Source: Peptococcaceae bacterium CEB3 (GTDB lineage Bacteria > Bacillota > Desulfitobacteriia > Desulfitobacteriales > Desulfitobacteriaceae). Taken from it: a stretch of DNA of 41,981 nt. Shown here in pieces: positions 20,496 to 39,392 of the stretch; the stretch's first letter is position 1, and the number at the start of each line of letters is the position of its first letter. The position numbers and the translations under genes were made by a program. The stretch is taken from NCBI GenBank assembly GCA_001029295.1, contig LDXJ01000032.1, positions 331-42,311 on the forward strand. The letters run 5' to 3'. The notes under the pieces are model-generated. The model saw only the letters and a program-made list of their open reading frames with translations, was not told the DNA's origin and did not search any database.

Positions 20496-20606
20496 GCGCA
20501 CAAGCACGGCAGTCACGGCAGTGTGTGAGTGAATGTGGCGAGAGCCTATCCGGCCAATTAAGTGGGATGACAGCGCCGGTTTACGCTAGGAAAGTGAAAA
20601 AGAAAA

Positions 20607-20648
20607 GGCAACGCGGAGAGCCCTCTCCCGAAGGCTGTCTGCGTTGCC
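20607..20648 (+). terminator. Hairpin after the hydratase gene
   Basis: GGCAACGC (20607-20614) pairs with GCGTTGCC (20641-20648). The inner bases can also pair (GGAGAGCC region with GGCTGTCT). There is no clear T-run, so it is a possible terminator or mRNA 3' end structure. Confidence 0.45.
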
Positions 20649-20741
20649 ATGTTCTAAGCTATTTTGTCCGTTAGTGCCAATGCCGGGGGTGCAGCATGTT
20701 AGGTCTTAGTACATGTAGGGTTTTAGTAAATGATGAAACAC

Positions 20742-20782
20742 AAGAGCAAGTAGCCTACCTTGCACAGAGCTACTTGCTCTTT
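20742..20782. terminator. Probable bidirectional terminator hairpin
   Basis: AAGAGCAAGTAGC (20742-20754) and GCTACTTGCTCTT (20769-20781) form a perfect 13-bp stem between the convergent hydratase and acyl-CoA ligase genes. Confidence 0.7.
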
Positions 20783-20817
20783 CCCCAAACGACCGCCCAT
20801 CGGCGGCTGGTTGTACA

Positions 20818-20850
20818 ACCGGGATGTTGGTAGCATCCCGGTCTATTTTA
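20818..20850 (+). terminator. Intrinsic terminator between convergent genes
   Basis: ACCGGGATG (20818-20826) pairs with CATCCCGGT (20834-20842) around a 7-base loop, followed by CTATTTTA. From here to 20942 there is only a 10-bp direct repeat (ATCAGGGTT, twice). Confidence 0.75.
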
Positions 20851-20941
20851 TGTCTTGGTCCACATTTTTATTATAACGTTTTCCTTAGCCAAGTTCACGG
20901 TCACCATGATCAGGGTTATCAGGGTTATCACTATGTCACAG

Positions 20942-22539
20942 TCAGTGCCCAGCCAGACCACCCCAGCCGGCACGCAGGACGTGTTTGAGGATTTTTCCCG
21001 AGGCATTTCTGGGTAAGGTGTCGACGATCTCAACCAGACGAGGAATTTTATAGTCAGCGAGTTTGCCTCGGCAGAAGTCACGTATGGCTTCAGGAGCAAG
21101 CGTTTCTCCCTGGCGGAGTACCACCATGGCCAGAACGCTTTCGCCCCAGTCAGGATGAGGGACCCCGATGACGGCGACATCCGCGATTTGGGGGTGCATA
21201 CTCAGGACATCCTCTATTTCTTTAGGGTAGACGTTTACGCCGCCGGAGATGATCATGTCCTTCTTGCGATCCAGGATCCAGAGGTAGCCGTCGGCGTCAC
21301 GGCGGGCAATGTCCCCGGTGTAGAGCCAGCCGTCACGCAAGGTTTCACGCGTGGCTTCGGGGTTGCCGTGATACCCCAGCATGACACTTTCGGAGCGGAT
21401 GATAATTTCACCGGCTTCATCCGGAGCAGTGTCGTGCCATCAGCCCGGACCACCCGGATTTCAGAGTTGCCCGTGCCGCGGTTGCCAATACTTCCGGTTT
21501 TCGGGCCATGTTCATGGGGACGGAGGGCCGAACCGTTGGGTCCGGCCTCTGTTAGGCCGTAAACGCCCATCCATCGCCCAGACAGGGCTTGCTGCCATTT
21601 TTGGATTTGTTCAGTACTGACCGACGCACCCCCATAGATCCAGAGCTTCATTGAGGAGAGATCCCATTCCTTTAAGTTGGGCATCCGGGATAAAAGCTGG
21701 TAAACGACCGGAGCTCCGAAGAAATGGGTGGTCTTTTCCTGGGAGACATACCTGAGCAGGACATCCGGGGCAAAGTCACCCAGGGTGACACTTGCGCCCG
21801 CCCAAAAAGCTCCCCAGAGAAAAAGGTTGAGCGGGGCGGAGTGGGTGAGGGGCATGAGGATGAGGCAGTTGTCACCGGCGTAGATCCCTGCTTCATAGGC
21901 CATGATCTTGGCTACGGACAGGACGGCCTCATGGGACAATCTGACTCCTTTGGGTTTGCCCGTGGTGCCGGAGGTGTAGAGGATTTCGGCGGTCTCTGCC
22001 GCAGCAGGGAGTGTCTCGGCGAGTTGGGGCGGTACCGTTTGCTGCCTTGTTTCCGGTATAGAGTCGGGGTCTGGGGCGGGGCTGAAGTCGGCGCTGAGGT
22101 TGGCGTTGGGGTCGGCACTGAAGTCGACACTGAGGTCGGCGCTTAAACCTGCGCTGAGGTCAAATGTGTGGACTCCGCTCCGTGAGAGTTCAGATGCGAT
22201 CGGGCTGAATTCTTCCGCAAAGAGGAAAAATTCCACTTCCGCGTCGGCGAGAATACCGGAGATTTCGCGGGTTGTCAGCCTGACATTCAGGGGAACGATT
22301 ACGGCCCCGAGTGAGGTCGCCGCCAGGAAGCCGAGCACGAATTCCGGTTTGTTGGTCGAGAAGAGGGCGACGGCGTTTCCCGACCGCACACCCGCGGCTC
22401 GGAGCCGGGTGGCCAGTTGGGTTGCTTCCGTATAGAGGTCAAGCCAAGTGTAGGCCCGGGAGCCCGCCGGATAGCGGAGGCCGGTCTTATTGGCGTAATT
22501 CAGGGCGTTTCGCTCAATAACGCGCCAGAGTGTATCCAT
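20942..22539 (-). pseudogene. Acyl-CoA ligase (AMP-forming), interrupted by a frameshift
   Basis: An AMP-binding acyl-CoA synthetase, about 532 residues if repaired. The N-terminal part (22539 to about 21434) carries ILYTSGTTGKPKG (P-loop) and GVYGLTEAGPNGS. The C-terminal part in another frame carries DGWLYTGDIARRDADGYLW, RKKDMIISGGVNVYPKE and the catalytic-lysine motif PRNASGKILKH. The two frames join near 21434: upstream reads RADG and downstream reads DTAPDEAGEI, consistent with loss of one base. All core motifs survive, so the break may be recent or a sequencing error. An extra Ser/Asp/Leu-rich insert (about residues 127-157) has tandem repeats. The gene lies downstream of the acyl-CoA dehydrogenase and probably activates the acid that enzyme oxidises. 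Confidence 0.85.
22070..22165 (-). repeat. Low-complexity tandem repeats in the ligase gene
   Basis: Degenerate 12-15 bp units rich in GCTGAGGTCGGC (forward strand) encode alternating LSAD/FSAD-type units just before the P-loop motif of the acyl-CoA ligase. This position is normally a short loop in the family. Confidence 0.75.
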
Positions 22540-22556
22540 AGCCGTCGTCCTTTCTC

Positions 22557-22589
22557 TCCTAAAAACATAATAATATGTCTCTTTTAGGA
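22557..22589. promoter_or_regulatory. Nested inverted repeat upstream of the acyl-CoA ligase
   Basis: TCCTAAAA (22557-22564) and TTTTAGGA (22582-22589) flank an inner pair ACATA / TATGT. On the minus strand it precedes the ligase start by about 18 bases, and its 3' arm holds the AGGAG of a Shine-Dalgarno, so it may be an operator or an RNA hairpin that hides the ribosome site. Confidence 0.55.
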
Positions 22590-22746
22590 TATTTCCCTCG
22601 ATACCTTGCTTATGGGTTTGTGGGGTAGTCCCAGTGCTTTGGGTCCGTTGTGTCTCTTTGGGAAACTTCCCTGGAGACTCCTGAGTTTAAGGTTGTTTTG
22701 TCCTTGAACCCCCAGCCTCTTAGCCAGAAAGGCAGGCCAAGGAGGG

Positions 22747-23985
22747 TTACTCGTAGATTTTCTCCTCACTCAGGTCCGCGTTTTCGGCATCGTTCTCGCT
22801 GGACCTCTTGTTGTTGGGAGCGGCAGCTATTTCTTTGTAATATTCATGTTGGATGATGAGGTCCATGATCTCATTCGTGCCGGTCCAGATCATAATCAAG
22901 CGGGTATCGCGCAAGAGACGCTCAATGGGGTAAACATTGGTATAGCCAATCCCCCCCATGATCTGCATGGCATCGTTGACCACGGCCCAAGTCGTGTCTG
23001 TGGCAAATTTCTTCGCTTCTGAGACCAGGCGGCGGGCCAACGATGGGGAGACACCGCCGTCAACCGCGCGGGCGGCGGAATAGACCAAGGAGCGGGCCGC
23101 GTCCAGTCGGGTAAGTGAGTCGGCAATTTTGAAGCTGACGGCCTCAAAGTCTTTGATTTTGTGGCCGAAAGCTTTGCGCTTGGTGCTGTAGGCAGCGGCC
23201 ACGTCCAAAGCGGAGCGGGCCATGCCCAAAGCCCCGGCGGCACTGGTCAAGCGTTCTGGGATCATCATCTGATAGAAGATTTTTGCGGCTTGCCCCTCTT
23301 GCCCCAGAAGATTTTCCTCAGGGACCCGTACATTTTTAAAGATCACCCGACCGGCTCCACCACCTCGTGTACCCATAAGCCCGTAGACGTGGGCAACTTC
23401 GACTCCGGGTCCGCGTTCGACGATAAAAGCACTCATGCTCTCATGTGGTTTGCCTTCCGGGTTGGTGTTGGCGTAGACCATAAAATAATCGGCACCTTCA
23501 GCCCCCACAACAAAGCGCTTCTGTCCGCTCAAAATGTAGCTGCCCCCGTCCCGCCGGGCAACCGTCGTAGCTCCGAAAAAGTCCGAGCCGCCGCGGGGTT
23601 CGGTCAAGGCCTCAGCCGTATACAATTTTCCGGCAAGAGTGGGTTTAAGGTAGCGTTCTTTCAGGTGCTCCGAGCCGAATTTGGCAAGAGCTTCGCCGAC
23701 GATGGAGGGGAGAGAGTAAAGACAGGCTAAGCTGGTACCCAGGACCCCGACTTCTTCGAGGACGGCCACTTCCTCCAGCCAGTGGAGTCCGCGCCCGCCG
23801 TAAAACTTGTCAAAGCGCAGGCCTAAAAGGTTTGCGTCTCCCAAGGCCCTGAGGTAATCTGGGGGGTAAGTGACCTTCTCGGCGTCCATATCCAGAATCA
23901 GTTGCCGGGGGACTTTCTCCCGGACGAATGCGGCGGCTTCTTGCTGCAAGGTTCTTTGCGTATCAGTCAAAAGGAAATCGAACAT
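22747..23985 (-). CDS. Acyl-CoA dehydrogenase
   Basis: A 412-residue flavoprotein of the acyl-CoA dehydrogenase family. [18 protein letters not shown] is the flavin-binding signature in the middle domain, and [20 protein letters not shown] is the C-terminal helical signature. At the usual catalytic-glutamate position of MCAD-type enzymes (YEGT) this protein has WTGT, so that residue is threonine. A glutamate is present in [12 protein letters not shown], at the helix-G position used by isovaleryl-CoA and long-chain enzymes. This suggests an isovaleryl/branched-chain-like active site. A GGAGGAG site lies ten bases before the ATG. It is followed, 207 bases on, by the acyl-CoA ligase and preceded by a LiuR-like regulator, so it probably serves branched-chain or fatty acid oxidation. 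Confidence 0.92.
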
Positions 23986-24356
23986 GATTCAATCTTCTCC
24001 TCCTTGTCCAAGTTTTCTTACGAAAATGTCCTTGTGCATTTTCATTCTACTTTGCGAACGGATAGTTCATGATTGTTTCTTTACAGTCGAGCTCCGGAGC
24101 CCGTCAAAAGAATCCGGTGAACCGTTGCGGGGTGCGAACGACGAAGGCTCGATTTGACCGAAAGGTGCTGCGAGTTTTCGGGGTGATTGTGGACCTTCTC
24201 CGCGGTAGTGGAGTTTGTCGGTGTCCGATACGCTTGGGTCGCCCAGCTACGCCGGGATCGCTTCAGCATGCCCGGGTGGGCAGGGTGCGTCCGGGTCGCC
24301 CCGGCATGACCGAGTTGACGCTGTACGCCCGGGTTGCTTGGGTACACGTTGGTTCT
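23986..24356. other. Gap with GC-rich imperfect repeats
   Basis: About 370 bases between the acyl-CoA dehydrogenase and the MerR-type gene. The segment 24215-24345 is GC-rich, with repeated GCCCGGGT / CGCCGGG-like cores (for example near 24269, 24292 and 24327). Open frames on both strands here have skewed composition and no ribosome site, so I do not call a gene. A promoter for the dehydrogenase is not evident. Confidence 0.4.
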
Positions 24357-24782
24357 CTAAGGCTGTTTTGCTTGCCCTGCGGTGCTTTGGCTCTTGAGTT
24401 CGTCCAGCTTGGCGCAAAACTTTTTGTGATAGTCCAAAAGTTCTTCCCGGATCAGGATGAGTTCTTGGATCTTTTCCTCAATTTCTTGGAGGCGCCGTTT
24501 GCCATAGGCCACAGTGCGTTCGAGTTGGAGGCGCTCGCTGCGGTCCTCATCATAAAGGTCGATCATTTCTTTGATTTCTGCCAGGGAGAAACCCAGCTTT
24601 TTGCCGCGAAGAATGAGTTTTAGGCGAGTCCTTTCCCGCGGGCCGTAGAGCCGCTGGTTCACTTTCTCCTGATTGAGCGGGGTGAGCAGTCCCACTTCTT
24701 CGTAATAGCGGATGGTCCTGGGGGTGAGCATGAACTCTTGGGCAAGTTCGGAAATGGTCATTGGTAGTTGGTGTTTGCTCAA
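24357..24782 (-). CDS. MerR-family regulator, LiuR-like
   Basis: A 141-residue regulator. The N-terminal winged HTH (MTISELAQEFMLTPRTIRYY, EEVGLLTP) is followed by YGPRERTRLKLILRGKKLGF and LAEIKEMIDLYD, then a long coiled coil (about 85-130). This combination is the LiuR type that controls branched-chain amino acid and fatty acid oxidation genes in many bacteria. I chose the TTG at 24782 because GGAAAGGGGA lies eight bases upstream. The ATG seven codons later has no site. No metal-binding cysteines are present. It is first in a minus-strand cluster with the acyl-CoA dehydrogenase and ligase, and an inverted repeat of LiuR type (24910-24925) lies upstream. Confidence 0.9.
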   Translation of the reverse strand: MSKHQLPMTISELAQEFMLTPRTIRYYEEVGLLTPLNQEKVNQRLYGPRERTRLKLILRGKKLGFSLAEIKEMIDLYDEDRSERLQLERTVAYGKRRLQEIEEKIQELILIREELLDYHKKFCAKLDELKSQSTAGQAKQP

Positions 24783-24909
24783 AAGCCGGATCCCCTTTCC
24801 TGATTGTTGCCTTCCGGTCAAGCCGGCAGCCGCCGGATGCCGGTGATGGGCTGGATGTCTCGAAGGGGTAGACAAGTGGCTTCTAGAGATAAGAATATTC
24901 TGCCACCAG

Positions 24910-24925
24910 TTAACGTAAACGTCAA
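24910..24925. promoter_or_regulatory. LiuR-type operator and minus-strand promoter
   Basis: TTAACGTAAACGTCAA is an inverted repeat of TTNACGT around two bases. On the minus strand TTGACG (24925-24920) is followed 19 bases later by GAATAT, the long spacer expected for a MerR-controlled promoter, with the palindrome overlapping the -35 and the spacer. It faces the merR-dehydrogenase-ligase cluster. The LiuR motif match is from memory. Confidence 0.65.
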
Positions 24926-25013
24926 GAGAAAAATATGGAGATGGAGCGCGACAACAAAAATAACCTTGACTCAAAGACTCAAAAAGCGCACAGTAGGAAA
25001 GCCAACCAGAATG

Positions 25014-25022
25014 TGGTATACT
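25014..25022 (+). promoter_or_regulatory. Extended -10 candidate for the aldolase gene
   Basis: TGGTATACT about 115 bases before the aldolase ATG, without a convincing -35. The interval 24926-25136 is otherwise AT-rich, with a tandem GACTCAAA pair at about 24968-24983. Confidence 0.45.
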
Positions 25023-25136
25023 TTGGGTAATGTTTTGATGTTCTCGGACCAAAGCAGGCGTGGAAAAGCAGGCGCAGGCAGGGAACCATGGATAGGCTGC
25101 CATGGATCCGTTAGTTCAACCAAAGGGGGATATGAC

Positions 25137-26024
25137 ATGGATAGCAAGCAAGCGGAGAGAATGCGTCACGGGAAGGGGTTTATTGCAGCGCTGGATCAAA
25201 GCGGTGGCAGCACCCCTAAAGCATTGGAACTGTATGGGATACCTAAGGATTCATACTCTGGCGAGGAGGAAATGTTCAATCTCGTCCATGCCATGAGGAC
25301 CCGGATCATCACCAGTCCGGCCTTCACGTCCGAGTACATATTGGGCGCGATTCTTTTCGAACAGACTATGGACCGCTCCATTGAAGGCATGCTGACCGGT
25401 GATTATCTCTGGAAGAAGAAAGGGATCCTTTCTTTTCTGAAAGTGGACAAGGGGCTGACCCCGCTCAGTGACGGTGTGCAGATGATGAAACCCATCGCTG
25501 ATCTGGATGATCTGCTGAAGCGAGCGGTTGAACGCAAGATATTTGGCACGAAGATGCGCTCTGTAATCAAGAGTGCAGACTCCACAGGCATCAAACGGAT
25601 TGTCGATCAGCAGTTTGAATACGGTCAGCGGATTGCCGCAGCCGGACTCGTTCCAATTATCGAACCGGAGGTCGACATCTTCGGCACCGATAAGGCAGAG
25701 TCGGAGCGGCTGCTCAAGGCCGAAATCTTCCGGCATCTGGATGTTTTGCCTGAGGGTGTCACCGTCATGCTGAAGCTTTCGGTCCCGACAGAAGCCAATT
25801 TCTACTCAGACCTCATCGCCCATCCCCGCGTCCTGCGTGTGGTGGCGTTGTCCGGCGGCTACAGCCGGGATGAGGCGAGTCAGAAGTTGGCACTTAATCA
25901 AGGTCTAATTGCGAGTTTTTCCCGCGCCCTCTCGGAAGGCTTAACCGCCACGCAGTCTGACGCAGAGTTTAATGCCGTGCTGGCTGACTCTATCCAAAAG
26001 ATCTACCAGGCATCCATTACCTGA
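25137..26024 (+). CDS. Class I fructose-bisphosphate aldolase
   Basis: A 295-residue class I (Schiff-base) aldolase of the short bacterial type also found in Staphylococcus. It splits fructose 1,6-bisphosphate to dihydroxyacetone phosphate and glyceraldehyde 3-phosphate in the cytoplasm. Landmarks are [43 protein letters not shown] (the Schiff-base lysine) and [20 protein letters not shown] lies six bases before the ATG at 25137. The frame is open far upstream, but that part shows no aldolase sequence. It is divergent from the LiuR-like regulator and probably monocistronic. Confidence 0.95.
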
Positions 26025-26113
26025 ACTTGGCTTAACCCTGTGCGGTACAGGCACTGGTCCGTACGCGAAAAGTGGAGCCACGCCAGGAGAAGGGGGGAAG
26101 AGGGGAAGTACCA

Positions 26114-26186: not shown

Positions 26187-26313
26187 TATAATAAATCAAC
26201 GAACCCGAGGTGCCCTAAACGCCTTATTCCTAAGTACAGCGGACCGCACAAATTGGGCGACCGGATCATAAGGACTGGAAAAGTAGCTGATTTCGAAAGG
26301 TTGGCTACTTTTT
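26187..26313 (+). promoter_or_regulatory. Promoter, about 85-nt leader and terminator-like hairpin (possible attenuator)
   Basis: TATAAT at 26187-26192 (TTGCGA 18 bases upstream) would start a transcript near 26200. AAAAGTAGC (26279-26287) then pairs with GCTACTTTT (26304-26312) and runs on in T. The hairpin lies between this promoter and the fusion gene 125 bases downstream, so it may attenuate that gene. No riboswitch class was recognised in the leader. Confidence 0.5.
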
Positions 26314-26345
26314 GGTATATTTCGTATATTCTCTCTTCTTGTCTG

Positions 26346-26365
26346 CTCATCTCATCTCATCTCAT
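26346..26365. repeat. (CTCAT)4 microsatellite in the leader
   Basis: Four perfect CTCAT units in a pyrimidine-rich leader upstream of the fusion gene's ribosome site. Confidence 0.9.
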
Positions 26366-26437
26366 CTGTTTCAGTTTCTTTTCTTCTCCTCGCCGCTCTT
26401 ATCTGCTCCCCTACTTTTCTGGCTGGAGGTCATGGTA

Positions 26438-28879
26438 ATGAACGACAAAGTATACTTCTTATCAAAAGTCGACTTCTTATCTGCCCTCAATGGCCAGGAA
26501 CTGGTGGAACTGGCAGAAGACTTTCAGTGGCATGAATATGAACCAGGCCAGGACATCATCCAGCAAGGTGAAACACAACATCACTTTTACGTGCTCGCTG
26601 AGGGGCATGCCGAATCCCTCGTCGGCAAACAGGGGTACACCTCGTGGCAGGTGAATTCCTTCGGACCCGGTGAGGGTTTTGGCGAGCTCGCTCTCTTTAC
26701 CGGGAAAGTCGCACCCACCACAGTTCGTTCTCAAGGTCAATGCCGGGTGTTGTCCTTAGATAGTGAGCACTTTGCCCGCATGTTGGTCCGTTGGCCCAAG
26801 CTCTATCCCGGTTTTACAGAAAAACTGTCCCATAGTGTCAACAAAGTCAACTATGCGGTTTGGGATGCCAGGTATAAGGAATTTCTGCGTTCCGCCTTGC
26901 AACTCACCCGCAATGAAGACCGCTTTTATGGTATCTGGGGCAGTGCGCGTACCAGTCAGGAAATCGAGAAGAAAATCGATGAACTCGTCCAAGGCAGGGA
27001 ACATTTGCTGTTATTCGGTGAGCGGGGTACCGGTCGCCAACAGTTGGCCTGGCATATCCATAAGCGACTGTCTGGCGGATCAACTCCTTTCGCCGTGGTG
27101 GATGGAAGGCAATTTGACCGGGAATGGGGCAACATAATGTCGGAGGCCAGTCCCGCGGATCGGCCCACCTTACACGGGAACAGTCTGTTCGACCTGGCTG
27201 AAGGCGGAACGCTGGTCGTCAAAGAGATTCATAAAATCTCTGCCCGCACTCAGTTGATTCTTGCCGAAAGCATACAAAACCTGGATGGAAAATGCTTTAT
27301 TGTTGGTACAGTGGAAGGAGATCTCTCTCTGTCCACATCCGACCTGGTACCTGAGTTACGTGCATGTTTTCAGCAAACCTATACGCTTGCCCCCCTTCGC
27401 CAACGCAAGCGCGACATCCCGATTATTATCCAAGGCGTTTTAGAAAAGCTGGGCAAGAAATTCAACCGCCCGGTCCCGACCATTCATGCCGAAGTGATGA
27501 AGCTGCTCCTGTCGCACGACTATCGTCAAGGCAATGTCACGGAGCTGTTGCAGGTGATTGAACGCGCTTTCTTCCTGGAAGACTCTGACGAAATTGGCTT
27601 GGAACAAATCTTCTTGGGTCCGACAGCTCAAAGAAATGGCAGCAGCGTTAATCTCCTCTTCTGGGGCGTTCTCATGAAGACCATTAGAGACGGCCGCCTC
27701 GTTCTTTGGGGTCAACGCCTTACCACCGCCATCTTCTACGGCTGTATTCTACTTTTACTCTTCTCACCTCACAGTGGCGTGGGCGTGAAAGTCCTTGCCA
27801 TTATTTGGGGCCTTTGGTGGCCGGCTTTAGCCATTGTCTCCCCCATTTTGGGCCGCGTCTGGTGCACCGTGTGCCCGTTCGCTTATGTCATGGAGTTGTT
27901 GCAGCGCAAGGTACATTTAAACCGTCCCGTGCCGGATGTCCTGGTTAAGTACGATTACCTTTTCATTACTTTCTTGTTTCCTCTGGTCTTCTGGATTGAA
28001 ACCGTTACGCAGATGCGCCTTCACCCCGGATCTACCGTCATTCTGCTCTTGAGCATACAGATTGCGGCCTTTGCCTTTGGTACCGTCTTCACGCGTCATA
28101 CCTGGTGCCGGCATCTATGTCCGCTGGGCGGATTTATCGGTCTGGCATCCATTGGGGCCCTTTTTGAAATCCGCTCTGACACGACCCTGTGCCTGAATAA
28201 ATGTACGACCCACGAATGCTACAAAGGCACGCAAACCCTGACCGGATGCCCCATGTCCCAACACCTGCCCTATCTCGATAACAACCTTGCTTGCAAGCTT
28301 TGTTTCCATTGTGTACGCAATTGTCCGAACGATGCCGTTGAACTTAACCTAAGGGTTCCCGGCCGGGAAATTTGGCATCTGGTCCGGATCAATCAAGGGT
28401 ATGCCATGTTCATCGGAGTTACCCTGGCCATGGTATTTCCGCTGATATATTTTCAGTATGTGCGCCCTGTATGGACACCTATCAAGTGGCAAATTGACTT
28501 CTCCGTCGTTTACTGGGCCACCGTTTTGTTAGCAGCCGTTCTAAGCAAATTAATCGCCCAACCCTTTAGAACCAGGGCTGCTTCGCGCCGCATCAAACTG
28601 ATGTTTGCCCTTATCCCCTTAGCCATTTCCCTACACGTCCTTTATCAATTACGCTTTATCCCTGGGGGGGCTTCGCTCTTAATCGGTCTGGCCTGGCGGG
28701 CGACTCACAGAATAGCCCACAGCGTTTTCGTTCCTTCTTACAGGGTGGGCCAAGTGCTGGTTGCAACAATCGGTTTCCTCCTGACGGCCTTTTCTGTTCT
28801 TATGGTATTAGCGCGACACCGCGATCACGGACCCAAAGTACGCGTTAACACCCCACAAAGTCACCATCCGCCGCAATGA
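26438..28879 (+). CDS. Membrane fusion: CRP-like sensor, degenerate NtrC-type AAA+ and NapH/NosR-type polyferredoxin
   Basis: An 813-residue protein with three parts. Residues 8-125 are a cyclic-nucleotide-binding-like beta-roll (GEGFGELALFTGK, 78-90), but the phosphate-binding arginine expected after it is absent (VAPTTV). Residues 160-395 align with the sigma-54 activator AAA+ domain: GERGTGRQQ (194-202) replaces Walker A GxxGTGK, GGTLVVKEI (256-264) replaces Walker B, PLRQRKRDIP (319-328) is kept, and QGNVTELLQVIERA replaces the sensor II NVREL. No GAFTGA loop or C-terminal HTH exists. From about 430 it is an integral membrane domain with several helices and cysteine motifs CTVCP (476-480), CRHLCP (557-562), C585/C589/C594/C604 and CKLCFHCVRNCP (619-630). 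ATG 26438 has GGAGGT seven bases upstream. It precedes the ttr-like regulators and is probably a redox or electron-transfer sensor. Confidence 0.88.
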   Translation: MNDKVYFLSKVDFLSALNGQELVELAEDFQWHEYEPGQDIIQQGETQHHFYVLAEGHAESLVGKQGYTSWQVNSFGPGEGFGELALFTGKVAPTTVRSQGQCRVLSLDSEHFARMLVRWPKLYPGFTEKLSHSVNKVNYAVWDARYKEFLRSALQLTRNEDRFYGIWGSARTSQEIEKKIDELVQGREHLLLFGERGTGRQQLAWHIHKRLSGGSTPFAVVDGRQFDREWGNIMSEASPADRPTLHGNSLFDLAEGGTLVVKEIHKISARTQLILAESIQNLDGKCFIVGTVEGDLSLSTSDLVPELRACFQQTYTLAPLRQRKRDIPIIIQGVLEKLGKKFNRPVPTIHAEVMKLLLSHDYRQGNVTELLQVIERAFFLEDSDEIGLEQIFLGPTAQRNGSSVNLLFWGVLMKTIRDGRLVLWGQRLTTAIFYGCILLLLFSPHSGVGVKVLAIIWGLWWPALAIVSPILGRVWCTVCPFAYVMELLQRKVHLNRPVPDVLVKYDYLFITFLFPLVFWIETVTQMRLHPGSTVILLLSIQIAAFAFGTVFTRHTWCRHLCPLGGFIGLASIGALFEIRSDTTLCLNKCTTHECYKGTQTLTGCPMSQHLPYLDNNLACKLCFHCVRNCPNDAVELNLRVPGREIWHLVRINQGYAMFIGVTLAMVFPLIYFQYVRPVWTPIKWQIDFSVVYWATVLLAAVLSKLIAQPFRTRAASRRIKLMFALIPLAISLHVLYQLRFIPGGASLLIGLAWRATHRIAHSVFVPSYRVGQVLVATIGFLLTAFSVLMVLARHRDHGPKVRVNTPQSHHPPQ

Positions 28880-28902: not shown

Positions 28903-28941
28903 GGAAAGATCCTCCGAAGATGAACTTCGGGGGATCTTTCC
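28903..28941. terminator. Long hairpin after the fusion gene
   Basis: GGAAAGATCC (28903-28912) pairs with GGATCTTTCC (28932-28941), and CCGAAG/CTTCGG extend the stem to about 16-17 bp around a 4-5 base loop. There is no T-run on the plus strand. Confidence 0.6.
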
Positions 28942-29033: not shown

Positions 29034-29151
29034 GGAAATTGGAGAACATATTTGAAACTTGGATTTAGGCTGCACTCGTGCAAATCCTCAGCGCCTTGGT
29101 GGCGCTTGAGGCTAACAAAACCTGTGCCAAAGAAAGGAAAGGACGACCGAC

Positions 29152-30153
29152 GTGGCAAGAACAAAACGGAGAAGACAAACGCTGAGAACAGCCTTCTCAA
29201 CGCTGAGAACAACCTCCTCAAGGGTTTGCCAAGGCAAAGTCGCCCTGTTGGGGCTGCTGCTTCTCTTATCCTCGACACTCCTCACGGCTTGCGCTCAAGC
29301 TCAGGCGGTGCCGCGAGTGTCTTTGCAGGGGCCTATGAGTACTGCGCTCGGAGCGGGGAAAGCCACCGAGAAAGATCCGGTCAGGGTCGTCCTGGCTTCC
29401 ATCACCTCGCCCCAGGAATCACGGGTTTATTACGACGCCATGCTCAACTACCTGGGCCGACAGTTGGGTCGGCCCATAGAGATTATCCAGCGGAAAACTT
29501 ACGCGGAAGCGAATGACCTGGTGCGGGCGGGTTCAGCCGACGTCGCCTTTGTCTGTACTTATGCTTATGTCGCCGGGCACGCGGAATTCGGGATGGAGCT
29601 TTTGGCGGCTCCGGTGATCCATGGACAGACGATCTATCACGCCGACGTCATTGTGAACAAAAACAGCAGTATCACCTCTTTTTCCCAGCTGCGGGGGAAG
29701 GTCTTTGCTTTCACCGATCCCATGTCCAATACGGGGACTATGTATCCCCTTTCTCTGGTGAAGGCTCTGGGCTCCACCCCTGACAAGTTCTTTGCCAAAT
29801 ACTTTTATACTTACAGCCATGACTACGCAATCCAGGCGGTGGCGGACGGCTTGGCCGACGGGGCCTCCGTAGACAGTACCGTCTATGATTACCTGCGTGA
29901 CAGCAATCCTTCTCTGGTGGCCAAAGTAAAAGTGATTCAGGTTTCGCCGCCCTATGGGATGCCGCCGGTTGTCGTACGCGCGGACCTGGATCCACACCTG
30001 AAGGAAAAGATTCAAACGATCCTCCTCCGGATGAATAAGAATAGCTCGGGCAGAGCAATTCTGGCCAAATTGCATATCGAGCGTTTTGTTACTGTCAAAG
30101 ATTCCCTCTATGACAGTGTGCGCGCCTTAGCCAAGGCGGCGGGTGCTCCATGA
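29152..30153 (+). CDS. PhnD-like substrate-binding lipoprotein (sensor component)
   Basis: A 333-residue exported lipoprotein. A basic N-terminus is followed by a hydrophobic stretch (VALLGLLLLLSST) and a lipobox LLTAC, so it is probably anchored outside the membrane. The body matches the phosphonate-binding-like fold: PRVSLQG..., GRPIEIIQRKTYAEANDLV, SADVAFVCTYAYVAG, and SLVKALGSTPDKFF. There is no permease or ATPase gene nearby. Instead a histidine kinase gene overlaps it by four bases (ATGA). TtrS-type tetrathionate sensors carry the same PhnD-like domain fused to the kinase. Here it seems to be a separate protein. The GTG start has AGGAAAGGA upstream. A 21-bp duplication (29180-29221) lies in the signal-peptide region. 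Confidence 0.9.
   Translation: MARTKRRRQTLRTAFSTLRTTSSRVCQGKVALLGLLLLLSSTLLTACAQAQAVPRVSLQGPMSTALGAGKATEKDPVRVVLASITSPQESRVYYDAMLNYLGRQLGRPIEIIQRKTYAEANDLVRAGSADVAFVCTYAYVAGHAEFGMELLAAPVIHGQTIYHADVIVNKNSSITSFSQLRGKVFAFTDPMSNTGTMYPLSLVKALGSTPDKFFAKYFYTYSHDYAIQAVADGLADGASVDSTVYDYLRDSNPSLVAKVKVIQVSPPYGMPPVVVRADLDPHLKEKIQTILLRMNKNSSGRAILAKLHIERFVTVKDSLYDSVRALAKAAGAP
29180..29221 (+). repeat. 21-bp in-frame tandem duplication
   Basis: Two copies (29180-29200, 29201-29221) differ at two bases and encode the repeated (L)RTAFST / LRTTSS segment in the n-region of the lipoprotein signal peptide. Confidence 0.88.
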
Positions 30154-31712
30154 CGGGGCGAGTGCAGGCAACACTGCGCCGTATGGTGAAGTTCTTATTT
30201 AATCTGGTCGGCCTGCGTTTTAAAGTCATGGGCATCATCCTCCTCGTGGTTTTGATTTTTGGCGGGATAGCTGTTTGGCAAGTCAGACAATCAGCCGTCG
30301 CGACTTTCCGCCGGCAGTTGGATAATCAGGGAATTTCCGCGGCTCAAGATGTGGCGGCGAGTAGTGTCGATTATATCTATACAAACAATGTTTTTGGACT
30401 CTATCAGCTGGTACAAGAGACTCTAAAATACAACCGGGATGTGCGCTATGTCTTTATCCTCAGCCCCAACGGACGGGTACTGATCAGTTCTTTCGGTCAA
30501 GGGGTTCCCGTGGAACTCCTAACGGCCAACCGGGTAGACCCATCTGAGCGCGATCACCTTCAGCTGCTGAGGACGGGTGACGGCTTGATTCACGATGTCG
30601 CTGTGCCGGTGGACGAAGGGCGGGCCGGGACGGTTCGCCTGGGGCTTTCGGAGAAAACCCTCTGGCTCACCGTGGGAGGTCTTATCCACCGCTTGCTCCT
30701 CACAGTTCTTGTGGCAGCTTGTCTGGGTTTGTTGGCGGCCTGGGTGCTCACAGTCCTGCTCAGCCGTCCGATTCTGGCGCTGGCCCGGGCGGCCCGCTCC
30801 ATTGGCGAAGGCAATCTGGAGTGTAGGGTGTCTTTGGACTGGGCTCAGGATGAGATCGGACAGCTAGGCTTGACTTTCAACCAGATGATGGATAGTCTGC
30901 AGGATTATCACCAAAAAGTCCGCGCCTTCAGTCGGGAACTATTGGAGCGGAACAAGGAATTGCAACGGGTTTCGGAAGAGCTTAAACGTAAAGAAGAACT
31001 GCGCTCCTACCTCTTGGGTCGTCTGATCACGGCCCAAGAGGAAGAGAGACACCGCATCGCCCGTGAGTTGCACGATCAGACGAGTCAATCCCTTACCTCT
31101 CTCATGGTGGGCTTAAAGAATGCGGAGGCCGCGCCGGACATGGCGGCTGTGCGCCGAAATATCGCGGAGCTTCGCGCTAGGACGGACGGGATCTTGGAAG
31201 AAGTGCATAACCTGGCTCTCGAATTGCGTCCGCGAGTTCTGGATGACCTAGGCTTGCCGGCCGCCTTGCAGCGCTATTGCCGGGAGAGCGCCGAACGTTA
31301 TGGTCTGGATATTGATTTGCACTTGGATGGCTTTGCCGAGGGAGAGCGCATGTCACCGGAACTGGAAAATACCCTCTTTCGGGTGATCCAGGAGGGAATT
31401 ACCAACGTGGCTAAGCACGCCCGGGCCAAGAATGTCAGTGTCATTCTGGAGCGCAAGGAAAACAGAGCATTAGTGATCGTCGAAGATGACGGTTGTGGGT
31501 TTGAGCCTGACCGCATGAGGACGGCGTCGTCGGCGGCGGCGGAAAGAAAGCTGGGCCTCTTTGGCATGCAAGAGCGCATCGCTTTGGTCGAGGGGCGTAT
31601 GACGATTGAGTCTGAGCCGGGTGGAGGAACGACCTTGTACTTTGACGTGCCTGTCGCGAAAAATGAAGGAGGGAAACAAGGTGACGAAGATCCGAATCCT
31701 GTTGGCGGATGA
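30150..31712 (+). CDS. NarX/NarL-family sensor histidine kinase
   Basis: A 520-residue membrane kinase. Transmembrane helices at about 24-44 and 178-204 bracket an extracytoplasmic domain of about 130 residues (PAS-like, with VRYVFILSPNGRVLIS). A HAMP domain (about 205-255, SRPILALARAARSIGEGNL) leads into HisKA_3 with the phospho-acceptor H308 in EEERHRIARELHDQ and a HATPase_c domain (FRVIQEGITNVAKHA, EDDGCGFE, LGLFGMQERI). The start ATG overlaps the lipoprotein stop, and its 3' end overlaps the regulator start by 32 bases, so the three are coupled. It likely reads the state of the PhnD-like protein. Confidence 0.93.
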   Translation: MTGRVQATLRRMVKFLFNLVGLRFKVMGIILLVVLIFGGIAVWQVRQSAVATFRRQLDNQGISAAQDVAASSVDYIYTNNVFGLYQLVQETLKYNRDVRYVFILSPNGRVLISSFGQGVPVELLTANRVDPSERDHLQLLRTGDGLIHDVAVPVDEGRAGTVRLGLSEKTLWLTVGGLIHRLLLTVLVAACLGLLAAWVLTVLLSRPILALARAARSIGEGNLECRVSLDWAQDEIGQLGLTFNQMMDSLQDYHQKVRAFSRELLERNKELQRVSEELKRKEELRSYLLGRLITAQEEERHRIARELHDQTSQSLTSLMVGLKNAEAAPDMAAVRRNIAELRARTDGILEEVHNLALELRPRVLDDLGLPAALQRYCRESAERYGLDIDLHLDGFAEGERMSPELENTLFRVIQEGITNVAKHARAKNVSVILERKENRALVIVEDDGCGFEPDRMRTASSAAAERKLGLFGMQERIALVEGRMTIESEPGGGTTLYFDVPVAKNEGGKQGDEDPNPVGG

Positions 31713-32355
31713 TCACATGGTTCTGCGCAGTGGCTTAAAACTCATGTTAAATGCCCAGGAGGATATGGAAGTGGTGGGAGAAGCCGGTGAAGGGCAGGAA
31801 ACTCTGGCGCAGACGGACCGCCTCCGGCCGGATGTCCTCCTTCTGGATCTGAGCATGCCGGGATTCGATGGGCTGCAGGTCCTGGAAACGCTGGCGGCTG
31901 GCCATCCCAACCTGAAAGTTCTGGTGCTGACAATGCACGACGATGAGGAATATGTGAAGAGGGTTCTATCATTGGGAGCCTGCGGCTATATTCTGAAAAG
32001 GGCCGCCGATGTGGAACTCCTGGCGGCTATTCGGACAGTGGCTCAGGGGCGGACTTTCGTGGACCAGGCTTTAAGCGGGATTTTGGTACGCCAGGCTTTC
32101 CCGCCGCCTGACATCAAACAGAACCAGACCCAGGCGGAAAGCCTGAGTGAACGGGAACGGGAGGTTTTGAAATTGGTGGCCATGGGGTATACCAACCGTC
32201 AGATCGCCGAAAGCCTGGTTATCAGTATTAAGACGGTTGAGAGCCACAAGGCCCATGTAAAGGATAAGCTTGGTTTGAAAGGGCGCTCCGAGTTGGTTCG
32301 CTATGCTGTTCAGCATGGTTTTCTGCCCGCCGGGGAGGCTCAGGGGCAAAGGTGA
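31681..32355 (+). CDS. NarL/FixJ-type response regulator
   Basis: A 224-residue regulator. The receiver has D10/D11, the phospho-acceptor D56 in VLLLDLSMPG and the lysine in GYILKRAAD. The C-terminal GerE-type HTH is LSEREREVLKLVAMGYTNRQ and SIKTVESHKAHVKDKL. GTG at 31681 follows GGAGGG at eight bases. It ends the lipoprotein-kinase-regulator operon with a terminator directly behind and lies just upstream of the reductase genes, whose leader has a 17-bp direct repeat that is a natural candidate binding site. Confidence 0.95.
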   Translation: MTKIRILLADDHMVLRSGLKLMLNAQEDMEVVGEAGEGQETLAQTDRLRPDVLLLDLSMPGFDGLQVLETLAAGHPNLKVLVLTMHDDEEYVKRVLSLGACGYILKRAADVELLAAIRTVAQGRTFVDQALSGILVRQAFPPPDIKQNQTQAESLSEREREVLKLVAMGYTNRQIAESLVISIKTVESHKAHVKDKLGLKGRSELVRYAVQHGFLPAGEAQGQR

Positions 32356-32423
32356 AGTCCCAAAGGAGCTATCCCTCCCCTTTCGCTCCGGGGGCCAAGG
32401 AACATAGATGACACCCTTTGATC

Positions 32424-32462
32424 AAAAACCCTGATGGCTAAATCGCGCTATCAGGGTTTTTC
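32424..32462 (+). terminator. Intrinsic terminator of the sensor operon
   Basis: AAAAACCCTGAT (32424-32435) pairs with ATCAGGGTTTTT (32450-32461) around a 14-base loop and ends in the T-run. Confidence 0.92.
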
Positions 32463-32536
32463 CCTGATCTGAAGGCAGACAAAGTTACAGGAACCGCCGG
32501 ATTAAAATTCACGATGAAATTCCTTACAATTAAAAA

Positions 32537-32575
32537 TCATAGGAGCGATAGCAAAAACTCATAGGAGCTATAGCA
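32537..32575 (+). promoter_or_regulatory. Two 17-bp direct repeats upstream of the reductase operon
   Basis: TCATAGGAGCGATAGCA (32537-32553) and TCATAGGAGCTATAGCA (32559-32575) differ at one base and are 22 bp apart, two helical turns, so both face the same side of DNA. They are 103-141 bp before the first reductase start and probably bind the NarL-type regulator. Two hairpins follow in the leader (32587-32597 and 32599-32628). Confidence 0.7.
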
Positions 32576-32677
32576 TCCGGGGATATGCCACCATGGCAGA
32601 TGGGGATGAGCGCACTGAGATGCCCATCAGGACCGTTTAACCATTTTTCGATATTTAAATGAGGAAGGTGATTAAAG

Positions 32678-33712
32678 TTGGCGGAAAATGAAAGACCTGC
32701 TCAAGAGAAAGAGGGCAGAACTCCAGATCGGCGGGGATTTCTGAAAAAGGCTCTTACTCTGGGCGGGGTGTTAGGAGCTGCCGGTGCGTTCGGTGCTCTG
32801 GGTATCGGCAAGGCCCTGGCCGCGGGGCGGGCGGGAGAGGAAAGTCAGCCCGGCGGGATGCTCCAGGCTGACGGTGAGGCTTTAACTTGGCAAGGCTACG
32901 CTGACCCGAATCTCAACAAGGGAGACGGCTGGCAGGATTGGAGCCGCCTGTTGAACCCGGCCAAACTGCCTATTTACCATGATAATTTCGCTCAGATCAA
33001 GGCCGCGCGGCCGAAACACCATTGGGTTCTGGTGGTCGATCTGCGCAAATGCACCGGCTGCCAATCCTGTGTCGTCGCCTGCAAAAGCGAGAACAACATT
33101 CCTGTGGGAAATTACCGTACTTGGGTGGACGTGGGCCAAGTCGGCAAGACCGTGGCAGCCGCCGGCGGGGATGTGGTTACAGATGAGGGGAGTTATGTGC
33201 AAGAAGTCAAAGTGCGCAATATTCCCAAGCTCTGTAATCACTGTGACAATCCCCCCTGTGTCACCGTCTGTCCGGTTAAAGCTACTTTTAAGCGTGCCGA
33301 CGGTCCGGTGCTCGTCGATCCACGCCTCTGCATCGGTTGTGGGACCTGTGTCAATGCCTGTCCTTACGATGCCCGTTACCTTAACCCGATTTCCCATACC
33401 GCGGACAAATGCACATTGTGTGTTGAACGCATAGATGCCGGACTGCTTCCGGCCTGTGTCACGACCTGTGTCGGCCGGGCCCGCGTTTTTGGGGACCTGC
33501 TCGACCCTAAGAGCGAGGTTTCGCAACTCTTGGCCCATTACCCGGCTGAGGTGCGTAAACCTGAAATCGGCACTAAACCACAGGTTTTTTACATCGGACT
33601 GAACGGGGAACTGGCGACGGCCGACAATCCGGCGAGCCAGCGCCTGATTTACACCTACACCATGAATACCAATTCAACGGCTTATCAAAAGCTGAATTCT
33701 CCCCGCAAGTAG
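32678..33712 (+). CDS. Tat-exported four-cluster ferredoxin subunit (TtrB/SrdB-like)
   Basis: A 344-residue iron-sulfur subunit. The N-terminus has a Tat motif (DRRGFLKKA, arginines 18-19) and a hydrophobic h-region, so it is moved folded across the membrane. Four cluster motifs follow: CTGCQSCVVACK; CNHCDNPPCVTVCP; CIGCGTCVNACP; and CTLCVER...CVTTC. This is the PsrB/NrfC/TtrB plan, passing electrons from the membrane subunit to the molybdenum enzyme. It begins at TTG 32678 with GAGGAAGG upstream. It is the first gene of a B-C-A reductase operon. Confidence 0.92.
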   Translation: MAENERPAQEKEGRTPDRRGFLKKALTLGGVLGAAGAFGALGIGKALAAGRAGEESQPGGMLQADGEALTWQGYADPNLNKGDGWQDWSRLLNPAKLPIYHDNFAQIKAARPKHHWVLVVDLRKCTGCQSCVVACKSENNIPVGNYRTWVDVGQVGKTVAAAGGDVVTDEGSYVQEVKVRNIPKLCNHCDNPPCVTVCPVKATFKRADGPVLVDPRLCIGCGTCVNACPYDARYLNPISHTADKCTLCVERIDAGLLPACVTTCVGRARVFGDLLDPKSEVSQLLAHYPAEVRKPEIGTKPQVFYIGLNGELATADNPASQRLIYTYTMNTNSTAYQKLNSPRK

Positions 33713-33902
33713 GTTCAAATCTTTACAGATATTCTTAAATAGTATTCCGGTCATAAATGTGGTTGATTGGCCGGGTTCACTTGTAGGATTCCCTAAGGAT
33801 GATGGTGTTCGGGATAATCAGTGCTTCCTGTAAGATTGCTTCCCGTAGGAGATGGTTCACTCCTTAGATTCCCCCAAAATTTGCGACAAGGAGAGGAAAG
33901 GC

Positions 33903-35096
33903 ATGGGACTGGAACAGGTTTATTGGACTTTGCCCATCGTGGCATATCCCTATATTTCCGGGTTGATAGCGGGTTCGTTTATCGTTGGCTCCCTGTCCAA
34001 AGTATTTGGACAAAAACAGTATGAGCCCTTGGCCAAATTATCCTTGCTTGTAACATTCGCCTTTATCTTATTTGCCCCGGTGGGTCCACTGGCAGACGCC
34101 CAACAGCCCTCCCGCTGGTGGGAACTCTTCACCCGGCCCCACCTTCCTTCAGCGCCGATGGGTCTTTTTACGATGATTTGGACGGCGTATCTGCTTTTGG
34201 TTCTGGTGGAGATGTATTTGGCCTTCAGGGTGGATTTCTGTCAATTGGCCGCGGTTGAGACCGGCTGGCGAGCCAGACTGTACAGGGTGCTCGCCCTGGG
34301 TTCCACGGACACCTCCGAACAGCGGCAGGCCAAGGAGCACACATGGCTCGTGGGTTTAGCCGGAGTGGGAATTTTTCTGGCCTTTGCTTTCCACGGTTAC
34401 ATCGGCTTTATCTTTGGAGCGATCAAGGCCCGTCCACTGTGGCATAATGCTTTGATGATGCCGATGTTTATCACTTCGGCCATTCTCTCCGGTATTGCTC
34501 TGATGATTGTTGTCTATACCCTGGTGTTCCGTTATTTTTCCCGGGAGCAGAGAGTCGACGCTAACCTGACGAGCGGGTTAATGAAGATTATGCTCTGGGT
34601 CATGTTTGTCGATGTGTTTTTCGATATTGTCGATGTCCTGAACTCCGCCCCCGCAGCTTATGCGAATGCGGCGACCAGCCAAGGGTTTGCTCAGGTCTTC
34701 CTACACGGCCCCTTGACAGGAGCGTTCTGGTTCGGGCAAATCGGACTCTTAGTCCTGGCTTTGATCCTGGCCCTGCTGCCCAAAGTTCGGCGTTCACCTT
34801 CGGCCGCTTCTCTGACTTCCCTACTCGTGCTCGTGAGTGTTTTCTTCATGCGGTACAATGTCGTTATTGGCGGGCAACTCCAAGCGAAAGCATCCCAGGG
34901 CCTCGTCCTCTATACGCCGGCTCTGTTGGGGAGAGGTTCGGTCCAGGTGGTTTTCGGAATGTTTATGCTCATTCTTTTTGTCTTTTTGGTTGTCATGAAT
35001 GTTTTTCCTTGGGATGATGGGGCGCTCAGGCAGAGATTAGCGTCAGGGAATCGCCCTGGGGTCACGGAAAAGCCGGTGAATGCAGCCGGGCGCTAG
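33903..35096 (+). CDS. NrfD/PsrC-type membrane quinol-oxidising subunit (TtrC/SrdC-like)
   Basis: A 397-residue polytopic membrane protein with about nine hydrophobic helices, matching the NrfD/PsrC family that anchors iron-sulfur subunits and oxidises menaquinol. The ATG at 33903 has AGGAGAGG six bases upstream. The frame is open for 17 codons more but with no site. The 190 bases between ttrB-like and this gene hold no other gene. It forms the middle gene of the B-C-A order seen in tetrathionate and selenate reductase operons. Confidence 0.9.
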   Translation: MGLEQVYWTLPIVAYPYISGLIAGSFIVGSLSKVFGQKQYEPLAKLSLLVTFAFILFAPVGPLADAQQPSRWWELFTRPHLPSAPMGLFTMIWTAYLLLVLVEMYLAFRVDFCQLAAVETGWRARLYRVLALGSTDTSEQRQAKEHTWLVGLAGVGIFLAFAFHGYIGFIFGAIKARPLWHNALMMPMFITSAILSGIALMIVVYTLVFRYFSREQRVDANLTSGLMKIMLWVMFVDVFFDIVDVLNSAPAAYANAATSQGFAQVFLHGPLTGAFWFGQIGLLVLALILALLPKVRRSPSAASLTSLLVLVSVFFMRYNVVIGGQLQAKASQGLVLYTPALLGRGSVQVVFGMFMLILFVFLVVMNVFPWDDGALRQRLASGNRPGVTEKPVNAAGR

Positions 35097-35276
35097 GCCT
35101 CATGAGAGACCGAAGGTAGTTTGAAACTAGACTAAAGATAGACTGAAGAATGTTAACTCACTGGATCTTCTCCAGAGGAAGATGTTCAAAATCCTTGCTC
35201 GTGGAAACAGGTCTTTTGACGGGCGATGTCGGCCGCCCTGAGTAAGCAAAGCGGAGACAAACGGAGGGAAGTAGCG

Positions 35277-38399: not shown

Positions 38400-38541
38400 G
38401 AGCGGCGAAGGTTAAGGGTCGGGATCAGCGAAGTTTTAGGGTCAAGGTCAGCAAAGTCTGAGGCACCAATTGATACGAGCCGTGACTTGAAGATCGTTGC
38501 AGGTAACAAAATGGTTCAGACGGGATGTAGGGGGGATGGAA
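38400..38541. repeat. Degenerate repeats between reductase and chaperone genes
   Basis: Imperfect units around GATCAGCAAGG (about 38384, 38423, 38447) are a continuation of the codons at the 3' end of the catalytic gene, as if its tail had been duplicated and then decayed. Confidence 0.5.
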
Positions 38542-39315: not shown

Positions 39316-39392
39316 GACAAGGGAGTGGCCCTGCTTTTTGGGCAAATTCGAGCCCCGTGGGAGATCCCCGGGGCTTCTGTCGCCGAGTCTTT

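Follow-up and report, generated by a model that had tools for sequence, protein, structure and literature searches.

What does a protein do that joins, in a single chain, a CRP-like domain, an AAA+ domain of the kind used by sigma54-dependent activators and a membrane polyferredoxin domain, and do the parts that come from regulators still regulate? The question is raised by a gene of Peptococcaceae bacterium CEB3 that lies in the window, the whole stretch of 41,981 nucleotides analysed here (contig LDXJ01000032.1, positions 331 to 42,311 of the forward strand). An earlier note on this DNA had proposed that the regulator domains have been re-used as a non-enzymatic sensor or scaffold coupled to membrane electron transfer, next to a respiratory reductase island.

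Domains and lost residues of the 813-residue protein

The gene is a single open frame from ATG to stop (26438-28879, + strand; 813 residues), and its start codon matches approximately the start residue of most homologues (19 with assigned starts). Its features are collected in the table. Pfam recognises cNMP_binding (residues 32-116, 6.2e-16), Sigma54_activat (168-281, 8.9e-08), AAA_lid_14 (321-391, 7.4e-14) and Fer4_5 (454-497, 4.1e-10). A PDB search with the AAA+ stretch gives CapR as the best match (2.6e-14) and also finds NtrC1 (7.3e-13), FleQ and PspF, while a profile built from 20 homologues finds NtrC-family structures with its AAA+ part (best 9.3e-42) and structures of cyclic-nucleotide-binding domains with its N-terminal part. 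Of the three domains that had been read from the frame, the two regulator domains are thus confirmed by both kinds of search and the membrane domain by Pfam, and the concern that the middle region might not be AAA+ can be set aside. A single-sequence AlphaFold2 model (pLDDT 39.8, pTM 0.26) was unusable and nothing is drawn from it.

Features of the gene and its protein (positions in the window; residues numbered in the 813-residue protein)
Feature	Position	Strand	Remark
FesM-like gene, CRP-like + degenerate NtrC-type AAA+ + polyferredoxin membrane protein	26438..28879	+	813 aa
Ribosome-binding site GGAGG	26425..26429	+	8 nt upstream of ATG 26438, read from sequence
CRP-like cNMP-type domain, residues 5-130	26450..26827	+	cAMP-contacting Arg place is A92
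NtrC-type AAA+ domain with lid, residues 160-395	26915..27622	+	catalytic residues lost
Walker A place GERGTGRQ	27017..27040	+	Lys to Arg (residue 200)
Walker B place LVVKEI	27212..27229	+	Asp to Lys (residue 262)
Sensor II place T368	27539..27541	+	Arg in canonical activators
Membrane polyferredoxin domain, residues 420-653	27695..28396	+	predicted helices 1-4 and iron-sulfur ligands; Fer4_5, hydropathy
CxxCP, C476 and C479	27863..27877	+	
CxxxCP, C557 and C561	28106..28123	+	
Ferredoxin-type ligands C585, C589, C594, C604-P605 (CxxxCx4C...CP)	28190..28252	+	
Ferredoxin-type ligands CxxCxxCxxxC, C619-C629	28292..28324	+	
C-terminal membrane part, predicted helices 5-8	28397..28816	+	hydropathy; least conserved in most homologues
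Strong hairpin 3' of gene	28903..28941	+	17-bp stem, no T run, fold -32.1 kcal/mol, z -5.96; possible transcript end ahead of next gene

The AAA+ domain has lost the residues that a bEBP needs. In alignments to CapR and two NtrC1 entries, GERGTGRQ falls on Walker A, LVVKEI on LFLDEI and GNVTEL on GNVREL, which places R200 at the Walker A lysine, K262 at the Walker B aspartate and T368 at the sensor II arginine, as had been read by eye; the acid next to the Walker B place (E263) is retained. The protein contains no GAFTGA-like string. The claim that the GAFTGA loop is lacking holds for the motif and fails for the segment, where a different sequence, shorter by a few residues, stands instead of a plain deletion: it measures 39 residues here, 26-43 across 30 aligned family rows, and 41-45 in 33 of the 34 activators of the same genome, out of 44, that could be measured (75 in the remaining one). 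In agreement with the absence of a DNA-binding helix noted before, a Pfam scan of the protein gave no DNA-binding domain. A few sigma54 activators likewise lack one. In the CRP-like domain, the phosphate-binding cassette (PBC) holds A92 at the place of the arginine expected of a cAMP-binding CRP-type domain; the loss of the cAMP-contacting residue, also noted before, is thus borne out.

The other sigma54-type AAA+ places of the same genome (5.3 Mb, 64 contigs) serve as a control. Searched with the 813-residue protein, the genome yields 44 other matches to the AAA+ part at E <= 0.001, and regular expressions find a GAFTGA-like string in 43 of them, a strict Walker A in 40, Walker B in 41 and sensor II in 41. 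All four patterns are present in 37 of the 44 and none in the 813-residue protein. Seven places fail at least one pattern: five (L002, L081, L085, L087, L093) retain the residues by eye and fail on the strictness of the pattern alone, one (L095) is a short frame starting within the AAA+ domain, and one (L088) is, like the 813-residue protein, truly degenerate: it retains the Walker A lysine and has lost the Walker B aspartate, GAFTGA and the sensor II arginine.

The hydropathy averaged over the phylum homologues, read by eye on a simple scale, indicates eight membrane helices and puts the N-terminal domains on the same side as the cysteine loops; the charge bias between the sides is weak. Binding of haem by the C-terminal helices was considered and rejected, as the histidine at 733 is not conserved.

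Conservation across the family

Homologues at E <= 1e-60 occur in 17 of 41 related genomes (own included) and in 14 of 398 genomes of the phylum, two sets that overlap, and the pooled searches give 30 distinct homologous loci. An open frame covers the full or near-full length in 28 of these; the other two (L022, L032) are interrupted by a stop or frame change and were left out of the residue counts. One locus (L029) is truncated by a contig end, and two (L018, L021) show stops in the search rows, yet have open frames that span residues 1-796 and 1-804.

Relatives outside the phylum were sought in plasmid records, in one single-protein scan of genome contigs and in one viral-contig scan. By tblastn, nine plasmid records are matched, seven of them over 24-35% of the query. 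The proteins P0003 (Pseudanabaena galeata) and P0004 (Aulosira laxa) are matched over 77% and 61%, the Pseudanabaena protein as one colinear piece over residues 17-645 (E 6e-48). The scan of genome contigs found no relative with the full layout and a single partial one, L025, a 703-residue protein of a Nitrospiraceae MAG; this has a related membrane iron-sulfur domain (Fer4_5, 28% identity over 455-665) but differs in its N-terminal part, which has a signal-like start, is probably periplasmic (by eye) and includes neither a CRP-like nor an AAA+ domain. The viral-contig scan gave no relatives. Synechococcus elongatus, a member of the control set, has a Fer4_5 match, recorded at the level of the genome and without a locus.

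Residues were compared in an alignment of 30 proteins, 28 from the phylum and the two cyanobacterial ones. The earlier count of at least 12 cysteines in ferredoxin-type patterns is now a count of 12, all invariant in 30/30 rows. The GAFTGA-like string, the Walker B aspartate and the PBC arginine, which would contact cAMP, are each found in 0/30. At the Walker B aspartate place the phylum rows have R (16), K (5), Q (4), N (2) or H (1), and the cyanobacterial rows N and E; an acid at place 263 is present in 26/28 phylum rows and in neither cyanobacterial row. The Walker A place holds arginine in 22/28 phylum rows, and lysine in the other six and in both cyanobacterial rows. Glutamine follows the arginine in 22/22 cases, so the replacement is maintained and is not drifting. 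At the sensor II place, one phylum row has arginine and one lysine. On a quick tree two Lys/Arg changes are needed at the Walker A place, and one is still possible. Sequencing error as the source of the losses is ruled out because the same losses recur in the homologous proteins, and the suspicion that intact Walker motifs elsewhere in the family might expose a mis-sequenced copy is answered by the same counts. The sequences support the view that residues essential to both sigma54 activation and ATP hydrolysis have been lost, and recurrently so, across a conserved family.

The layout is as constant as the cysteines. The Pfam order cNMP, AAA+, Fer4_5 is the same in 7/7 cNMP-AAA+ homologues scanned (five from the phylum, two cyanobacterial), in one of which (L034) the Fer4_5 match is below cut-off, and Pfam gave no DNA-binding domain in eight cNMP-AAA+ proteins scanned. 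G197, G199, H208, R323, K324 and D326 of the N-terminal cap domains are invariant across 20 rows. When each of 29 homologues is set against the 813-residue protein, 27 have their highest conservation among the three main parts in the membrane/iron-sulfur one (405-660), while in L010 and L030 the cNMP part exceeds it; the C-terminal helices have the lowest identity in most rows. The AAA+ part is 41-56% identical to that of the 813-residue protein in 25 of 27 phylum homologues (28% in L034, 33% in L033), and the cNMP part in the same 25 rows is 33-64% identical, a range that encloses the AAA+ values. This part-by-part conservation speaks against decay of the gene.

Neighbouring genes, quinone genes and FesM

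Downstream of the gene lie those for a PhnD-type binding protein (SBP, 29152), a histidine kinase (30150) and a LuxR-type regulator (31606), and farther downstream those for TtrB-, NrfD- and TtrA-like proteins (32678-38399). In a sister species of the same genus (G001, one contig), the flanks 20184-26037 and 29125-39456 are syntenic, in pieces of 82-87% DNA identity, and the ttr-like island is retained at 84-86% DNA identity, with the gene itself missing. Its place is taken by some 2 kb that include an IS200/IS605 pair (Y1_Tnp, OrfB_IS605), and a profile search of the sister genome gave AAA+-only or cNMP-only matches and no full-length copy. Around the homologues, TtrA, TtrB or NrfD relatives (E <= 1e-10) are absent from 29/29 other neighbourhoods of 6 to 20 kb, several of them limited by contig ends. 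Of the window genes to the right of 20000, those matched in these 29, besides the homologue, are an acyl-CoA ligase and the kinase, once each (27%). A TtrA-like enzyme (E <= 1e-150) is encoded in 7/17 carrier genomes and 7/24 non-carriers, which is chance (p=0.51). The ttr-like island is therefore an incidental neighbour of the gene, because the sister species has the island without the gene, the 29 neighbourhoods lack ttr relatives and co-occurrence is at chance level. Thus, of the original proposal, the non-enzymatic module is supported by losses that recur in the family, while the coupling to a reductase island finds no support. Shared neighbours are confined to a few loci, mostly of close relatives, and no neighbour gene conserved beyond close relatives was found that would name a donor or acceptor. 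A defence role was discarded, the PADLOC matches being read as shared domains.

The carriers tend to have genes for menaquinone synthesis. A loose marker (PF02621 below 1e-40 or menB over cut-off, counted by hand from tables) is found in 138 of the 398 phylum genomes (PF02621 in 104 after 33 weaker matches were dropped, menB in 36, both in two) and in 14/14 carriers (hypergeometric 2.3e-7). A strict marker (MqnC over cut-off or menB) is found in 134/398 (MqnC 99, menB 36, both one) and in 12/14 carriers (6.9e-5), the other two (G119, G189) having neither MqnC nor MenB over the cut-offs. These p values overstate the evidence because the 14 carriers fall in six families, and the quinone association is confounded by ancestry and genome size. 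What the markers show is that the gene goes with respiratory genomes; that its protein has a quinone as partner is not thereby proven, and no site for a quinone was recognised in it.

The nearest described protein is FesM, a type that we take to be defined by a cNMP domain, an NtrC-type AAA+ domain and a 4Fe-4S membrane domain in one chain; the 813-residue protein has these three domains in one chain and in this order. Xu, Liu and Zhao reportedly described FesM of Synechococcus sp. PCC 7002 in 2005 as predicted to combine a 4Fe-4S motif with an NtrC-like domain and a domain for cAMP binding; lacking the last of these, the protein is said to have failed to complement. A later paper places FesM in cyclic electron transfer around PSI, and cells that have lost it do not grow mixotrophically on glycerol (PMC9003380); the 2005 paper is cited in another cyanobacterial study (PMC9324425). 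Among the listed matches of the literature search, FesM appears as a protein for cyanobacteria only; searches for the fusion by domain words, and one with Desulfosporosinus, found no paper, and the match in PMC12265555 is to FeSMo. The cyanobacterial P0003 and P0004 are like the 813-residue protein in the order of cNMP, NtrC-type AAA+ and polyferredoxin domains, in their 12 cysteines and in having no GAFTGA, Walker B aspartate or PBC arginine. They differ in that they are 21-22% identical to it, retain the Walker A lysine (arginine in the 813-residue protein) and have a longer C-terminal end. The protein is probably of the same kind as FesM of PCC 7002, judging by the layout and by these two proteins, and the layout is not unprecedented, since cyanobacterial FesM-type sequences share it.

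Each part alone has other relatives. Membrane ferredoxins of the NapH/MauN type, with which NosR, CcoG and RdhC are presumably to be grouped, likewise have cysteine motifs at helix ends and ferredoxin-type ligands; the 813-residue protein differs in adding four predicted helices and a cytoplasmic cap. NapH is the nearest named membrane family for residues 470-640, at scores far below cut-off (NF007013, 40.2 vs 234 bits; TIGR02163, 34.1 vs 213.05 bits), and no nap genes were recognised among the downstream genes scanned. With NtrC-family activators (NtrC1, PspF, FleQ) the protein shares the AAA+ fold and lid, but their catalytic residues, GAFTGA loop and DNA-binding domain are absent from it.

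Possible function

That the protein is a membrane-tethered, sigma54-dependent activator that still works is barely credible. Its AAA+ domain is clearly homologous to those of NtrC1, PspF and FleQ, but GAFTGA, three catalytic residues and a Pfam DNA-binding domain are all missing, GAFTGA and the Walker B aspartate are missing from every aligned relative, and all four patterns are found at most other AAA+ places of the genome. The lost catalytic residues and the two broken loci of the 30 could instead mark a decaying gene in which the AAA+ part is being lost. Such decay is highly improbable, given 28 open loci, AAA+ identities within the range of the cNMP part and substituted Walker A residues that are themselves conserved. 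A role as accessory or maturation subunit of the tetrathionate-reductase-like island owes its appeal to the adjoining of gene and island in the window, from the SBP gene through to the TtrA-like gene; it is very unlikely, having been largely refuted already by the sister species, and the other neighbourhoods (some of them short), the chance co-occurrence and the 17-bp hairpin between the gene and the next one also count against it.

The protein could also be a redox-sensing signal protein, whose iron-sulfur membrane domain receives the signal and whose cap informs a second protein of the state of the quinone or ferredoxin pool, without electron transfer as its function. The descent of the cap domains from regulators, their retained fold residues (e.g. 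G197, G199, H208) and the differing gene neighbours from locus to locus are in keeping with this. However, the scanned proteins have neither GAFTGA nor a Pfam DNA-binding domain, 12 cysteines and a NapH-type membrane part exceed the needs of a sensor, and the FesM phenotype concerns electron flow (PMC9003380); a pure sensor thus seems unlikely. The reading that we favour, with about even confidence, is a FesM-like, quinone-linked membrane electron-transfer protein with a non-hydrolysing regulatory cap.

In a FesM-like electron-transfer protein of this kind, we infer that the 12 cysteines, probably on the cytoplasmic side, would bind two or three [4Fe-4S] clusters, which would carry electrons between the menaquinone pool and a cytosolic donor of low potential, either ferredoxin or NAD(P)H-linked. 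The host may have no photosystem, and the acceptor would then be menaquinone, not plastoquinone. The CRP-like and AAA+ domains would together make up a cap in the cytoplasm. This cap, which would have ceased to activate sigma54, is best read as a re-use of regulator domains as a non-enzymatic regulatory or structural module, and it could act as a ligand- or conformation-dependent gate, or as an oligomerisation platform, for electron transfer. In the clade of the window protein it would scarcely be capable of ordinary ATP binding or hydrolysis; that Arg-Gln is conserved at the Walker A place points to a structural role, such as a filled pocket. Lysine-bearing members may still bind nucleotide, with hydrolysis unlikely because the Walker B aspartate is missing.

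A wider view, speculative and rather unlikely as a whole, is that non-photosynthetic anaerobes have in their FesM-like proteins a hitherto unrecognised class of electron-transfer protein, one that links ferredoxin (or NAD(P)H) to menaquinone and is gated: a ring of CRP-AAA+ pseudo-enzymes would open and close the iron-sulfur path into the membrane, and cyanobacterial PSI cyclic flow would be one late use of an older device. A transcription-activator ATPase that has lost its catalytic residues and is kept to cap a membrane protein of electron transfer would be an unusual route of domain re-use. Photosynthesis masks the role of FesM in cyanobacteria, and carriers without light reactions would allow direct tests of donor, acceptor and ligand. 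A natural test of the importance of nucleotide binding is at hand in four genomes of one family that have two copies, each genome encoding one protein with the Walker lysine and one with arginine in its place.

Surroundings of the FesM-like gene and its site in the sister species

Ahead of the TtrB/NrfD/TtrA-like genes stand three separate genes, one for a binding protein of the PhnD type, one for a HisKA_3 kinase and one for a LuxR-type regulator. All three are kept in the sister genome G001 with 86-91% protein identity, and we take them to look like the TtrS-TtrR system in split form. The position in G001 that matches that of the FesM-like gene is occupied by an IS200/IS605 TnpA-TnpB pair. 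In the window, the stem-loop upstream of the FesM-like gene has T5 at the end of its 3' arm. The 272-aa frame that lies beyond the TtrA-like gene has a G001 counterpart of 73% identity and no match in Pfam and NCBIfam scans; its product is possibly a reductase chaperone.

Features discussed, with coordinates
Feature	Location	Remark
Stable stem-loop	window 26278-26313	5' of FesM-like gene; z -3.32
Short CTCAT tandem repeat	window about 26345-26367	presumed leader of FesM-like gene
PhnD-type, HisKA_3 and LuxR-type genes	window 29152-32355	three separate genes
272-aa frame	window 38497-39315	3' of TtrA-like gene
IS200/IS605 TnpA-TnpB pair	L113:5971-7400	sister genome G001
Degenerate activator L088	G000:C56:72200-74900	genome of the window
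Paralogue pairs	L026 + L038 (G246); L027 + L035 (G050); L028 + L036 (G136); L029 + L037 (G169)	
Nitrospiraceae protein	L025:1797-3908	related membrane iron-sulfur domain
Cyanobacterial FesM-type genes	L068:5857-9494; L069:5428-9119	plasmids

Degenerate activators and paralogues

A second degenerate activator, L088, is encoded in the same genome. It keeps the Walker A lysine, its Walker B aspartate is replaced (YFREI), its sensor II reads GNVEEL and it lacks GAFTGA; judged by eye, its C-terminal end looks like the usual DNA-binding helix. Four genomes, all of one family, each carry two FesM-like paralogues, one with the Walker A lysine and the other with arginine.

Caps and neighbours in distant relatives

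The Nitrospiraceae protein L025 shares a related membrane iron-sulfur domain with the FesM-like protein but differs in its N-terminal part, which is probably periplasmic. Since L025 pairs the related domain with another N-terminal part, different caps are used with the membrane module. On the cyanobacterial plasmids, a cysteine synthase gene lies directly 3' of both FesM-type genes, and close to that of Pseudanabaena there are in addition genes for DsrE, a rhodanese and a glutaredoxin, neighbours that hint at a sulfide-related role there.
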